Below, piece after piece: positions 25,402-30,170 of a stretch of 39,767 nucleotides of DNA. The stretch's first letter is position 1, and each line of letters starts with the position of its first letter. Origin of the DNA: Cytophagaceae bacterium (GTDB taxonomy: Bacteria; Bacteroidota; Bacteroidia; Cytophagales; JAIYAX01); the NCBI GenBank assembly GCA_027488815.1, contig JAIYAX010000016.1:1-39767 (forward strand), read 5' to 3'. The position numbers were made by a program, and so were the translations under genes. The notes under the pieces are model-generated. The model did not search any database, was not told the origin of the DNA, and saw only the letters and a program-made list of their open reading frames with translations.

Positions 25402-25536
25402 ACAGACTTGCGCCAGCTGGGGGGAGCACATATACATAGCCTGTCACGTGAAACGGGAAATTAATGGCCGCTTTGACATACAACTTGCCAAGTACATGAA
25501 TTCAACAGGTTAAAAACAATTGCCAAAGCAGCAGAA

Positions 25537-25591
25537 AAGCCATAAAGGATCAAGAGGCATTTTCAGCTTTTCTATGCCCGTTTTATGGCTT
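25537..25591. repeat. Nested inverted repeat
   Basis: Outer arms AAGCCATAAA (25537-25546) and TTTATGGCTT (25582-25591) enclose inner arms GGCAT (25556-25560) and ATGCC (25574-25578). It could be a structured RNA or a decayed mobile-element end; no T-tract follows. Confidence 0.4.
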
Positions 25592-25740
25592 CCATAGTTC
25601 CTCTAAGAGACACCCAATTTTACAGATAAAAAAACCTGAAGAAAACTCAGCCGCTCCTATAAGTGCTTTATGAAGGCCGTTTTTCGTTTCAAAACTCAAG
25701 ATTAAATAAATTAAGGGTAGTTGAACGACAGTTACCGCTG

Positions 25741-25757
25741 TTAGGTGCTGGGCTTTA
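25741..25757 (+). repeat. Left 17-bp inverted repeat of R-M module
   Basis: TTAGGTGCTGGGCTTTA. Its reverse complement occurs at 27879-27895 with 15 of 17 bases matching. It ends 1 nt before the methyltransferase stop codon. Confidence 0.6.
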
Positions 25758-25758
25758 T

Positions 25759-26703
25759 TCATTCGTGGTATACAAGTTCTAATTGTCCGACTGTAATTTG
25801 CTTGTTTTCTTGTCTGTCGTTGATATACTCGTTGATACAGTTTGCAACGTATTCTCCAAGTTTTACAGGGACTGCATTTCCTATGATTTGTTCAAGGTCT
25901 GTCTTGCTACCGTTGAAAATAAAGTTTTCGGGAAAAGTTTGAATTAAACTTCTTTCTTTTGTTGATAGAGGTCTTACTTTGTCAGAAATTTCAACTGTGT
26001 CTCCTTCGTGTTTTGTGTAGCCTTTTGGAATTGGTCGGTTTACACCACGAATTGTTGGACTTGGTTCGTAAATACTGAAAATGCCACGTCTTGCATAACT
26101 TCTTGGGTGTCTGTAGTAATGCTCAACTCCAAGTGATTTGCCGAAATAGTCAAACAAAGTCATTTGTTTGCTTGCTAAATTTTTGTTGAAGTATGGATTT
26201 AGAAAATTGTCTGTTGAATGTTTATGTCCGACTAAGAAAAAACGTTTTCTTGATTGTGGAACTCCACAAAAACTGGCATCTAAAACTTGATAAGAAATTC
26301 CATATCCTGCTTCCTTTAAAATTTGTAATGATTTCTTCAGAATGTGACTCTTTGCAATTCGCTCAACATTTTCCATTACAAACCAATCGGGTTTTGCTGA
26401 GGCTACAATATTTGCATAAGAGATTGTCAGGTCTGCACGACCTAACGTTTCGTCCCTTTTTCCTGCACTTGAAAAGTCTTGGCAAGGTGGACCACCAATA
26501 ATCATTTGTGGTTTAAGGCTCTTAACAAATTCAAGTCCTTCTTCGCTTCCTAAGTCCATGTCGTAAATTGGGTGATTGAAATTATCTCTATAAACTTTTA
26601 CTGCTGGCTCCCATTTGTCAAATGCCGCTAATATTTTAAAACCTGCATGTTGAAACCCAAGCGACAAACCGCCACAACCTGAAAACAAATCTACTGTTTC
26701 CAT
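25759..26703 (-). CDS. C5-cytosine DNA methyltransferase of a type II R-M system
   Basis: 314 residues. Motif order is canonical: I DLFSGCGGLSLGF (6-17), IV GGPPCQDFSSAGKR with catalytic Cys74, VI ENVERI (111), VIII QSRKRFFLVG (150), IX RPLSTKERSLIQTFP and X GNAVPVKLGE (275). It transfers a methyl group from SAM to carbon 5 of cytosine. The target-recognition region between VIII and IX is short. It follows the restriction gene with a TAATG overlap of one base, so translation is coupled. A HindVP partner suggests recognition of GRCGYC-type sites (inference). The codon and base use is AT-richer than in the flanking housekeeping genes, a sign of transfer. Confidence 0.92.
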   Translation of the reverse strand: METVDLFSGCGGLSLGFQHAGFKILAAFDKWEPAVKVYRDNFNHPIYDMDLGSEEGLEFVKSLKPQMIIGGPPCQDFSSAGKRDETLGRADLTISYANIVASAKPDWFVMENVERIAKSHILKKSLQILKEAGYGISYQVLDASFCGVPQSRKRFFLVGHKHSTDNFLNPYFNKNLASKQMTLFDYFGKSLGVEHYYRHPRSYARRGIFSIYEPSPTIRGVNRPIPKGYTKHEGDTVEISDKVRPLSTKERSLIQTFPENFIFNGSKTDLEQIIGNAVPVKLGEYVANCINEYINDRQENKQITVGQLELVYHE

Positions 26704-27779
26704 TATGTGAATAGTTCTGGTGAGTTGTAAATAATTGCATCAAATCGTCTTTCTGGACTTAACAAATGCTGTCCACCGCCTAGAATGATTTTTCTGATTT
26801 CTTTCTTTTCAATTCTCGGTTTTGTCAATTCAGCACAAGTCATATACCTGTTTGTAATTCGGCCACTTACTGCAAATGCCTTGTCATTTTTAGTATTGTA
26901 TGAAAGTTCGTCAATAATTTTGTGGTGGTTAATTTGACCTTGATTTGCAAAGTCATAAAGCATCTTGAAAAGCCAAATGATAGTTCTTACTTGACGAGTA
27001 ATTCTGTTTGAACCTGCGGATAACTCACCCCTTGCAACATCAACAAAGAGTTGAGTAAAAGCGAAGTTTGACCAAATAAAAACATCTAAACAATTGTCTG
27101 CGAGTTTTGGCGATTTGCCATTTGTTTTCCAAATAGGTTGCATTAGTAACGGTTTTTGTTTGCCCAAAACAGAAAGGATTACACGGTCAATTCCCGTTAT
27201 CATTTCAGTAATATAAGACCATACAGAAACACCGTCTGTCCAATCAGTGATTGTGTCAAACCTATTTCCAATAAGTGAAGAAAGTTCCTTTTTGTTGTCT
27301 TTGAAGTTAGAAGCAATACTGCAAGCCAAATAAACTATCGTATCAGGGCGGATTACTATTTCACAACCAAAGTATTCTTCACTTAGATTACAAGTTGAAT
27401 TGTCAGGAAGTGCTGTTAATTTAACTTCAATTGGGCGTAAACATTGTCCGTTACTTCTTAGTTGGGTAACTAAATCAACTCTTGGTAAAGTTCCAATAAC
27501 TAATTGCTGATATGGTGTATATTGACTTTCAAAAGAGAAAAATAAATCGTCAGCGTTTGGTTCAATTCCGTAAAGTTGTTCCGCAGATATTTTCGTGTGT
27601 TTTACTTTAAGTTGATTGTCAAGATAGAGATAAACGTTTTCTAAGTTCTTAGAAGCAATAAAATTTGTCAAACCCGCAGGGAAAGAGGAATTAAATTGGT
27701 TCTTGCCCCAAGTGTCGGTTTGGGCAAAGTCCCTGTTTGAATATTTTACTCCGAAAAGTCCGGATTTTTCCTGTATCAT
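26703..27779 (-). CDS. HindVP-family type II restriction endonuclease
   Basis: 358 residues. The N-terminal pattern SGLFGVKYSNRDFAQTDTWG, the central LPRVDLVTQ and PIEVKLTALPDNSTC, and EIVIRPDTIVYLACSI match my recollection of the HindVP family. Asp102 and Glu118-x-Lys120 fit a PD-(D/E)xK nuclease core, which would cut unmodified DNA with Mg2+. HindVP recognises GRCGYC and pairs with a C5 methyltransferase, as here; the exact site for this enzyme is not proven. Restriction gene first and methyltransferase second in one transcript is notable because no controller gene is visible to delay restriction. Confidence 0.8.
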   Translation of the reverse strand: MIQEKSGLFGVKYSNRDFAQTDTWGKNQFNSSFPAGLTNFIASKNLENVYLYLDNQLKVKHTKISAEQLYGIEPNADDLFFSFESQYTPYQQLVIGTLPRVDLVTQLRSNGQCLRPIEVKLTALPDNSTCNLSEEYFGCEIVIRPDTIVYLACSIASNFKDNKKELSSLIGNRFDTITDWTDGVSVWSYITEMITGIDRVILSVLGKQKPLLMQPIWKTNGKSPKLADNCLDVFIWSNFAFTQLFVDVARGELSAGSNRITRQVRTIIWLFKMLYDFANQGQINHHKIIDELSYNTKNDKAFAVSGRITNRYMTCAELTKPRIEKKEIRKIILGGGQHLLSPERRFDAIIYNSPELFT

Positions 27780-27878
27780 TTTGTTTATTATATAGATTTC
27801 AAATTTACAAAAATTGTCCTTTGTATGTCTTTTAAAAGGTTCAAAGTTGTTAACGAGTTACTGTCGGTTGTGTCGGTT

Positions 27879-27895
27879 TAAAGCCTTGCACCTAA
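27879..27895 (-). repeat. Right 17-bp inverted repeat of R-M module
   Basis: On the minus strand reads TTAGGTGCAAGGCTTTA, pairing with the repeat at 25741-25757 (15 of 17). It lies 1 nt before the 146-bp recombinase-derived repeat. Confidence 0.6.
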
Positions 27896-27896
27896 T

Positions 27897-28042
27897 TACT
27901 CCGTTGGCGAATCATTTCGCTTATTTCCCATATCGCCGAGGTCTATGTGTTCCAACAGGCTCTTTCAAAGGCCCTTCAAATAGCCAATCATCTGGTTTGT
28001 ACTCCTTGAGGTATTTTTGGATCAAGCTGAGGATGTTTTCAG
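27897..28042. repeat. 146-bp repeat, copy A
   Basis: Ungapped match to 29895-30040 with about 11 differences. It starts at TACTCCGTTGGCG and ends at GGATGTTTTCAG. It encodes, on the minus strand, the end of a tyrosine-recombinase remnant, and its left end carries an imperfect GGCGAA-TCAT-TTCGCt hairpin. It lies right beside the R-M module. Confidence 0.85.
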
Positions 28043-28204
28043 CCAATATAGCAGTTCTGTCTTTTTTTTCCTTCCCTAATATGCTAAAAATTTTTCCGCT
28101 GTCCTGGGCAAGTCATCTACCCTTAGTTTAAATAGTTCGCCCAGTCGCAGCCCGGCAGAGTAGATCAGCATCAGGAGGGTTATGTGCTTCAGTCTTTCTG
28201 TGGC
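27921..28204 (-). pseudogene. Tyrosine recombinase (integrase) remnant, frameshifted and truncated
   Basis: Minus-strand translation gives TERLKHITLLMLIYSAGL, then RLGELFKLRVDDL, the catalytic-arginine box of XerC/D-like recombinases. A frameshift at an AAAAATTTTT run (near 28085) separates this from KEKKDRTAILAENIL and KYLKEYKPDDWLFEGP, the beta-hairpin and following part of the same domain. The N-terminal SAM-like domain and the C-terminal HxLRH and Tyr boxes are absent; a stop at 27921 follows. The 5' side is cut at the REP and RAYT element. It cannot encode a working recombinase. Confidence 0.75.
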
Positions 28205-28221
28205 CCAATCGCCCCCAATCG

Positions 28222-28267
28222 CCCCCGTTTGCAACGGGGGTGAATTAGAAGATCGTTTGCAACGATC
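28222..28267. repeat. REP pair 5' of RAYT (unit 1)
   Basis: Two perfect hairpins with a common core and TGC loop: CCCCCGTTTGCAACGGGGG (28222-28240, 8-bp stem) and GATCGTTTGCAACGATC (28251-28267, 7-bp stem). Confidence 0.8.
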
Positions 28268-28386
28268 AACCTTATCAAATACAAAGTACATTTATGGTAT
28301 TGCAGGTGATAAGTATCGAATAGCAGACCAGAATGGCATCTACTTCACTACTTCTACCATCGTTGATTGGATTGATGCCCCAATCG

Positions 28387-28432
28387 CCCCCGTTTGCAAC
28401 GGGGGTGAATGAGAAGATCGTTTGCAACGATC
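28387..28432. repeat. REP pair 5' of RAYT (unit 2)
   Basis: Same two hairpins at 28387-28405 and 28416-28432, immediately upstream of the intact RAYT start. Confidence 0.8.
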
Positions 28433-29012: not shown

Positions 29013-29081
29013 AAGAAACAAAAATGCATTCGCTGTAAGCGAATATCTCGCTCGCCCCCGTTTCAAACGAGGGCGAGTGGT
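28989..29081 (+). repeat. 93-bp repeat: RAYT 3' end plus REP pair, copy 1
   Basis: Matches 30078-30170 with about three differences and no gaps. It covers the last codons of the RAYT gene (GLVKVTVL), the 15-nt spacer and both 3' REP hairpins. Confidence 0.88.
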
Positions 29082-29094
29082 GAGGGCGAGTGGT
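29028..29094. repeat. REP pair 3' of RAYT with 13-bp tandem tail
   Basis: Hairpin 1: ATTCGCTGTAAGCGAAT (29028-29044). Hairpin 2: arms CTCGCCC and GGGCGAG (29051-29057 and 29071-29077) extended by CGTTT/AAACG with one C-A mismatch. The last 13 bp, GAGGGCGAGTGGT, are repeated in tandem (29069-29081 and 29082-29094). Confidence 0.8.
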
Positions 29095-29114: not shown

Positions 29115-29441
29115 TCAAGCGAGTTTAATAAAATTGTCTTCAAGTTTTACGTTAAAATTGATTTCTGCTTTTAATGCTCTGAATACTTTTAATATAGTGT
29201 CAATGGTAGCACTGTTGGCACTACTTTCAAGTTTAGAGATTTGAGCTTTCTGAACTCCAACAAGTCTTCCAAGTTCTTCTTGTGTCAAGTTTCTTTCTTG
29301 TCTTGCGGCTTTAATCATTTTACCCAAAACGTCCATGCGAAGTTCATACTCGTATTCGTCTCGCTCTTGTGTCCCTACTTTGCCGATGTATTTGTCTTTC
29401 ATTTCGGCAAGTGAGTATGTCTTTAATTCTTTAGTTGCCAT
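29115..29441 (-). CDS. XRE-family antitoxin (HigA type)
   Basis: 108 residues. After a charged N-terminal stretch, a helix-turn-helix domain is clear at about 38-90: LGKMIKAARQERNLTQEELG, then RLVGVQKAQISKLESSA and ATIDTILKVFRAL. It should bind and neutralise the toxin encoded 4 nt upstream and repress their shared promoter. The toxin-first order is that of higBA. The stop codon lies about 20 nt from the REP tail of the RAYT element, so the pair is boxed in between mobile sequences. Confidence 0.88.
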   Translation of the reverse strand: MATKELKTYSLAEMKDKYIGKVGTQERDEYEYELRMDVLGKMIKAARQERNLTQEELGRLVGVQKAQISKLESSANSATIDTILKVFRALKAEINFNVKLEDNFIKLA

Positions 29442-29445
29442 ATGA

Positions 29446-29787
29446 TCACTTTTGTCGTTTGTTGTTAAAATATTTGTCTCTCAGTCTTACTGCCCGGTCA
29501 ATTTCGTTTACCGGAACTTTGTCAGCTTTCTTAATAAAACCGTGGGTCGCTATGACCAAAGTTTCTTTGTTATCTGTCTTGTCCCAAAAAGCAAGAAGCC
29601 TGATTTGAAGTCCTGCAAACTTTGTCCTTAACTCCCAAATGTCATTTTGAAGTTTCTTGAAAAGTTTTGGGTCATTCGTTTGTTCAGCAAGGTCAATATT
29701 GTAAAAGATTTTCTTAATTGTCTTTGGGTCGAGTTGCGAAATGAACTCGTCCGCTTCTTCTAAAAATTTTGTCTCGAAAAATCTCAT
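29446..29787 (-). CDS. RelE/HigB-like toxin (Gp49 type)
   Basis: 113 residues. IWELRTKFAGLQIRLLAFWD, ETLVIATHGFIKKADKVPVN and EIDRAVRLRDKYF match the phage-derived Gp49-like HigB/RelE family, which cleaves mRNA at the ribosome. The gene precedes its XRE antitoxin by 4 nt. No frameshift is seen, so the pair may be functional. It is AT-richer than the housekeeping genes and lies between the RAYT element and the second integrase-derived repeat. Confidence 0.88.
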   Translation of the reverse strand: MRFFETKFLEEADEFISQLDPKTIKKIFYNIDLAEQTNDPKLFKKLQNDIWELRTKFAGLQIRLLAFWDKTDNKETLVIATHGFIKKADKVPVNEIDRAVRLRDKYFNNKRQK

Positions 29788-29894
29788 TCAATACTGTCGT
29801 GTTCAACGTCACAAAGATACTAAATGTTTCCATAAATAGAAACCATATTTTTTGTGAACTTCTTAGGTGTCATGTTGCTAATCTGACGCACAAC

Positions 29895-30040
29895 TACTCC
29901 GTTGGCGAATCATTTCGCCTATTTCCCATATCGCCGAGGTCCAGGTGTTCCAACAGGCTCTTTTAAAGGCCCTTCAAGTAGCCAATCATCTGTTTTATGC
30001 TCCTTGAGGTATTTTTGGATCATCCCGAGGATGTTTTCAG
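29895..30040. repeat. 146-bp repeat, copy B
   Basis: Second copy of 27897-28042, exactly 1998 bp away. Here the boundary hairpin GGCGAA-TCAT-TTCGCC (29904-29919) is perfect. It lies on the right of the TA pair as copy A lies on the right of the R-M pair. Its right end joins a REP at TTTTCAG/TCTCGC. Confidence 0.85.
29919..30040 (-). pseudogene. Tyrosine recombinase remnant, second copy
   Basis: The minus strand encodes ENILGMIQKYLKEHKTDDWL followed by LEGPLKEPVG, homologous to the remnant at 27921-28204 and stopping at the same place (RRYGK). Only about 40 codons survive; the catalytic Arg box is missing because the REP sequence starts there. Confidence 0.65.
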
Positions 30041-30045
30041 TCTCG

Positions 30046-30072
30046 CTCGCCCCCGTTTCAAACGAGGGCGAG
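30046..30072. repeat. Solo REP hairpin
   Basis: Arms CTCGCCC and GGGCGAG around a CGTTTCAAACG core, same family as the 3' REPs of the RAYT gene, followed by GTGGTG. Confidence 0.75.
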
Positions 30073-30077
30073 TGGTG

Positions 30078-30170
30078 TTGGTTAAAGTTACAGTATTGTG
30101 AAAGAAATAAAAATGCATTCGCTGCAAGCGAATATCTCGCTCGCCCCCGTTGCAAACGAGGGCGAGTGGT
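30078..30170 (+). repeat. RAYT 3'-end relic with REP pair, copy 2
   Basis: Contains the last ~8 codons of a RAYT gene and its stop (30098-30100 region), the spacer, and REP hairpins at 30117-30133 and 30140-30166. The rest of the gene is missing, so this is a deletion derivative of the element at 28213-29094. Confidence 0.8.

Follow-up and report, generated by a model that had tools for sequence, protein, structure and literature searches.

The attC sites of integron cassettes carry two boxes, R' and R'', of the types G^TTRRRY and RYYYAAC. Once a cassette is linear, its 5' end is formed by the R' tail while R'' follows the gene, and because the two halves of attC are in this way split to opposite ends, they resemble inverted terminal repeats. 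Integrons have been viewed as nearly absent from Bacteroidota, and the recombination of attC as a single strand has been credited to the I2 helix, reportedly unique to the integrase IntI (PMC7790495, PMC9024848). That helix is held to be necessary for cassette capture and to occur in no protein other than IntI (PMC7790495). Salinibacter ruber was the one member of the Bacteroidetes in which IntegronFinder 2.0 detected complete integrons (PMC9024848), and a survey of attC sites in 11 taxa left out Bacteroidota (PMC8352920). For a group of integron-like recombinases, an insertion was noted that is incompletely conserved (PMC8138268).

The window considered here, the whole stretch of DNA that was analysed, comprises 39,767 nucleotides from a Cytophagaceae bacterium, with a restriction-modification (R-M) pair between two inverted repeats. 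I propose that this pair is, very probably, a gene cassette belonging to an integron-type system of Bacteroidota, a reading drawn from comparison of sequences. The features on which it turns are these:

25460..25737, minus strand: constB, a repeat of the host genome, directly after R''
25734..25739, minus strand: AGCGGT, the remaining first bases of an attC hairpin arm; similarity to L018 and L021 stops here, the rest of the hairpin being lost
25740..25757, minus strand: R'' half-site (TAAAGCCCA)GCACCTAAC, which matches as complement the box at this cassette's 5' end (8/8)
25759..26703, minus strand: C5 cytosine methyltransferase (MTase), cassette gene 2 (PF00145, E 1.7e-70)
26703..27779, minus strand: HindVP-family restriction endonuclease (REase), cassette gene 1 (PF09519, E 2.1e-151)
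27879..27895, minus strand: R' half-site TTAGGTGC(AAGGCTTTA), the cassette 5' end, with a predicted recombination point of the G^TTRRRY type immediately ahead of TT
27896..28276, minus strand: what is left of a tyrosine recombinase gene (tblastn matches in two blocks, 28276-28109 and 28103-27972), its 3' end ..CGCCAACGGAGTAA being the attI-like site that received the cassette; repeated copies are followed by other genes
29115..29893, minus strand: second cassette, box TTGTGCGT, with a Gp49/RelE-like toxin (29446-29787) and an HTH antitoxin (29115-29441)
29894..30040, minus strand: another copy, 92% identical, of the recombinase 3' end with its attI-like site

Ends of the restriction-modification pair

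An earlier note on this DNA had described a HindVP-like pair bracketed by imperfect inverted repeats of 17 bp that enclose nothing but the two genes, and this description stands. Profile matches to PF09519 and PF00145 agree on the nature of the enzymes. The first repeat, TTAGGTGCTGGGCTTTA, lies at 25741-25757 on the plus strand and its inverted partner, TTAGGTGCAAGGCTTTA, at 27895-27879 on the minus strand, the two being identical at 15 of 17 positions. With up to 3 mismatches allowed, the motif has these two matches in the whole window and no others. Shuffled windows gave a mean of 0.17 matches, and at least two in 1 shuffle out of 100. The repeats are real, with a probability by chance of about 1/100 for the window. 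A single nucleotide separates the MTase stop from the first repeat, and the second repeat is 99 nt upstream of the REase start (about 100 had been claimed); the only ORFs between the repeats are those of the two enzymes. A further pair of look-alike sequences, GTTGAACGACAGTTAC and GTTGTTAACGAGTTAC, to which the note had also pointed, is probably due to chance: its first copy belongs to a repeat of the host genome that is not part of the cassette, and its second lies within the leader of the cassette itself.

Relatives of the HindVP enzyme were found at 70 loci when GTDB genomes were scanned. In four of these, from different Bacteroidota (L007, L018, L021 and L072), the similarity of DNA to the window starts exactly at 27895, and the flanks are unrelated. 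This coincidence is independent proof that the repeats exceed chance. Because the homologues share DNA from precisely this nucleotide, the R-M unit can be considered mobile, with its start at the outermost nucleotide of one repeat. The base preceding TTAGGTGC is A in the window and G in all four. On the side of the MTase, similarity in L007, L018 and L021 ends at about 25734-25737, that is 4-7 nt (CAGCGGT) past the repeat, after which the sequences diverge; in L072 it stops inside the REase gene at the edge of its own contig. The boundary that the earlier note had drawn at 27895 is therefore exact, but the one on the MTase side falls short, since in intact relatives the unit continues for about 110-120 nt beyond the repeat, taking in an attC hairpin and reaching the next G^TT. 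The note had also supposed a compact mobile cassette with no transposase of its own, and this view survives in part. The homologues that end exactly at 27895 amid unrelated flanks, together with sites in the same genome where the same flank is followed by other genes, speak for mobility, but the ends are halves of a cassette-specific attC rather than conserved, transposon-like terminal repeats.

The boxes themselves are instructive. Five box pairs from homologous R-M units (TTAGGTGC/GCACCTAA for the window type, TTATCGGT/ACCGATAA for L006, TTGGGTGC/GCACCCAA for L012, TTGGGCTT/AAGCCCAA for L024 and TTGGGCAC/GTGCCCAA for L026) differ in their letters and retain their complementarity. By my reading, seven R-M homologues of Bacteroidota resemble cassettes by their end boxes, as do several more in which a covariance model, described below, places attC directly after the MTase (among HindVP loci, for example, L006, L012, L014, L018 and L021). 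Others stand in ordinary contexts, and about half of the HindVP homologues are without such ends. Box matches in L008, L018, L066 and L071 were put down to chance, judged by their position, where about 1.5 loci are expected to match by chance. No HindVP homologue turned up in phage records. Small plasmids (5-11 kb) from Escherichia, Morganella, Citrobacter and Salmonella, most of them mobilizable, carry HindVP endonucleases of 37-39% identity.

The earlier note's hope of finding other cassettes with the same ends was disappointed: the junction motif, sought in the window's own genome, matched the window alone, a motif built from both ends had no second copy in that genome, and the exact 18-mer of the cassette 5' end had no match in 296 Bacteroidota genomes. 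Searches by end motif bring up no other copies because the boxes are specific to each cassette. The window itself lacks the hairpin; there the short junctions folded alone gave no structure and the covariance model for attC gave no match. The junction sequences display no evident target-site duplication; the relatives available for this comparison belong to the same order only.

Cassette arrays and attC hairpins in relatives

A more complete arrangement is found in L012. There an intact tyrosine recombinase of 377 aa (L012 2615-3748) is followed, 105 nt past its stop, by an attI-like site, ..CAGACCTATAAGCGAG^TTAGC, and by an array in which each cassette begins with G^TT and ends in a hairpin of about 132 nt. 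The R-M pair is cassette 4. The cassette adjoining it (L012 8259-9089) holds a gene for a PD-(D/E)XK nuclease family transposase (PF12784).

Of 395 Bacteroidota genomes sampled, 40 hold close relatives of the L012 recombinase at a threshold of E <= 1e-80. About 32 of these recombinases were read downstream, and all but that of L149 are followed by a site resembling TATAARYRAG^TTR, recognized by eye, beyond which the sequences are unrelated. When 229,256 nt downstream of recombinases at 21 Bacteroidota loci (20 genomes and L012) were scanned for hairpins without regard to boxes, 58 were found, versus 1 in shuffled sequence. In 29 of the 39 cassettes defined by consecutive hairpins, the 5' box is the complement of the cassette's own R'' at 8/8 positions, while boxes of other cassettes in the same array attain at least 7 matching positions in just 2 of 98 cases. 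An alignment of 34 attC sites gives an 18-bp stem with compensatory changes in every pair. Within the stem, columns 26 and 118 of the alignment form an A.C mismatch, the A invariant and the C present in at least 90%; this mismatch is a candidate for a signal of strand asymmetry.

A covariance model of attC matched at 18 places in the window's genome. Of 16 Bacteroidota genomes, 14 contained sites; some of these genomes had supplied training sites for the model. On 325 kb of non-Bacteroidota loci it returned nothing below E 0.5 (the best at E 0.54). Rfam shows no family for these sites. Matches to the attI motif in IMG/VR (L132 and L133) were dismissed as chance, there being no recombinase or attC at either place. 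Near one cassette array lies a fragment of a group II intron (RF02001; L180 12887-13085, minus strand). Some group IIC introns target attC sites.

These arrays share several features with integrons. In both, a tyrosine recombinase stands beside a primary site, cassettes follow in tandem, mostly in one orientation, and attC hairpins carry RYYYAAC and G^TTRRRY boxes, with R'' and R' matched within each cassette. In the relatives the attC has boxes and hairpin alike, of which the window retains the two boxes alone; the attI adjoins the recombinase gene and has one conserved G^TT insertion point; and tandem arrays of exchangeable cassettes are found in L012 and in 20 genomes. There are two differences. 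The array-linked recombinases lack the IntI insert (I2/patch III) and score below the TIGR02249 cut-off, and their attI is downstream of the recombinase gene, which points toward the array. The latter arrangement is shared with archaeal and other integrons, where attI lies immediately downstream of the integrase gene, but the archaeal IntIs retain the IntI-specific domain that these recombinases are without (PMC9668308).

How might such a cassette move? In the free circular form the two repeats would flank the hairpin of about 132 nt and pair as R'' and R', the attC presumably being used as a folded single strand. A tyrosine recombinase would cut the folded attC before the TT of G^TTRNNN, and its partner would be the double-stranded attI directly downstream of the recombinase's own gene. 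The outcome would be a linear, integrated cassette that starts with TTAGGTGC and bears the complementary GCACCTAAC past the MTase stop.

The recombinase and the alternatives

By both sequence and fold the recombinase is closest to XerA-type enzymes (5HXY, 4A8E), and it is related to IntI4. It shares with XerA-type enzymes the spacing of the catalytic domain but differs from them in its linkage to cassette arrays and, in most cases, in an additional N-terminal domain, about 95 residues long. The distance from KDR to HxLRH is 58-59 residues in all 30 recombinases measured, versus 100 in two true IntIs of the same phylum, and all 30 are without the IntI insert of about 41 residues (the I2 helix). 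The recombinases align to TIGR02249 below its cut-off and in two blocks, skipping positions of about 180-237, where the IntI-specific domain is located. In the AlphaFold model, whose quality is modest (mean pLDDT 75), the catalytic domain has no extra helix. The additional domain of IntI, with I2 helix and patch III, is thus wanting. A tree sets the recombinases apart from IntI, with long branches that leave the deeper order unsure.

True IntI, scoring over the TIGR02249 cut-off, was sought in 21 genomes, 20 chosen for their cassette arrays plus the window's own. It is absent from 15 of them, mostly 98-100% complete. In the other six, environmental Bacteroidota (G335, G284, G263 and G016, at L188-L191; G006 and G294), it occupies loci apart from the insert-less recombinase. 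The insert-less recombinase is likely the enzyme that moves the cassettes, to judge from its linkage to them and from the lack of alternatives in many genomes.

It is unlikely, in my estimation, that these are ordinary integron cassettes moved by a true IntI that bears the I2 insert, whether supplied in trans or present in past hosts, while the linked recombinases do something else. This idea draws on the six genomes with an integrase at another locus and on the reported need for I2 in cassette capture (PMC7790495). It has to contend with the 15 genomes without one, several of them rich in attC (38 sites in G375, 29 in G371), and with arrays that begin at a conserved site directly 3' of the insert-less recombinase.

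The remaining explanations do without integrons altogether. Inverted ends with no transposase between them are what one would see in a transposon- or MITE-like unit that is bounded by terminal inverted repeats and moved by a transposase acting in trans, but the ends of such a unit should be conserved across copies and common to unrelated inserts. Conserved transposon ends are strongly disfavoured because the five box pairs vary yet remain complementary; moreover, the motif from both ends has no other genomic copy and the relatives exhibit hairpin attC sites in the context of attI. I regard this explanation as very improbable. Slightly more improbable still is a dif module, in which genes between inverted XerC/XerD sites are moved by the host's Xer system. 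Such modules occur in plasmids of Acinetobacter. Small modules of a defence type, short inverted sites, no recombinase within and Xer-type enzymes at hand would all suit it, but here the ends differ from cassette to cassette and lead into a long hairpin, and the primary site adjoins a dedicated recombinase gene. A dif-like site of 28 bp at both ends, constant from module to module, is not seen. Least credible of all is that the inverted repeat arose by chance on either side of an R-M operon which was passed on by ordinary homologous transfer. The absence of such ends from about half of the HindVP homologues might seem to favour it, but the repeat has a probability of about 1/100 in this window, and the recurrence of the exact 27895 boundary in four other contigs (L007, L018, L021 and L072) refutes it.

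On the integron-type reading, which I prefer, the R-M pair appears from its sequence to behave as an integron cassette, one whose platform, for want of I2, falls outside integrons as defined by IntI.

Remnants in the window's genome and the place of the cassettes

The decayed 3' end of the recombinase recurs in the window's genome, with different content after each copy, and the attI-like junction there reads GGAGTAR^TTR. In the window the copies are followed by the R-M pair and by the toxin-antitoxin pair (29115-29893); at L121 the insert is a group of metabolic and membrane genes. Inserts that look defence-like follow three other copies: a C5 MTase and a GHKL ATPase at L117, a UvrD-type helicase and an RNase H-like protein at L118, and an N6/N4 MTase and a HerA-like ATPase at L120. 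Sites with matched boxes in this genome are L113, L117, L118 and L121. The longest recombinase copy, that of L120, reads EINTHH where relatives read EIYTHV, and so has lost its catalytic tyrosine. The search of the window's genome yielded no intact member of the family; two intact Xer-type matches, 30-37% identical, are taken to be the housekeeping XerC and XerD.

A non-coding repeat of about 280 bp, constB, is present in four copies (window 25460-25737; L113 1230-1516; L114 1702-1879; L121 9791-9916), always directly after an R'' box and in place of the attC hairpin. It is possibly an element that inserts into attC sites or deletes them. The 3' attC of the toxin-antitoxin cassette is also missing, and REP-like sequences lie in its place. 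Sequences of this kind (CGCCCCCGTTTGCAACGGGGG..) are found near 28210-28420, 29040-29090 and 30070-30160, one of them where that attC should be, and recur at many sites in the genome. The window also encodes a REP-associated tyrosine transposase (NF047646; 28464-29012).

The R-M cassette is probably stranded in this genome, since its own attC hairpin is truncated and the search turned up no intact recombinase of the family. With attC sites and cassettes and no intact integrase found, the genome is similar to a CALIN, a cluster of attC sites lacking an integrase, but its attI-like sites are still marked by remnants of the recombinase and are scattered rather than gathered in one cluster.

I incline, with some reserve, to a broader view: that Bacteroidota possess, throughout the phylum, a second kind of integron, in which a Xer-like recombinase without I2 or patch III captures cassettes by way of folded attC hairpins, either through another solution, perhaps the A.C mismatch, or as a state that preceded I2. 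No description of such a class of cassettes was found in the literature searched, the scope of which excluded most subscription papers and preprints, so an earlier description is possible. Cassettes of this sort could escape the usual integron searches, which are aimed at IntI. If the view is true, widespread cassettes served by a recombinase without I2 would alter two received ideas, the near-absence of integrons from Bacteroidota and the requirement for I2, and would make it possible to test directly how the capture of cassettes evolved. The movement of restriction, toxin-antitoxin and other defence genes between Bacteroidota as small cassettes would be explained as well.
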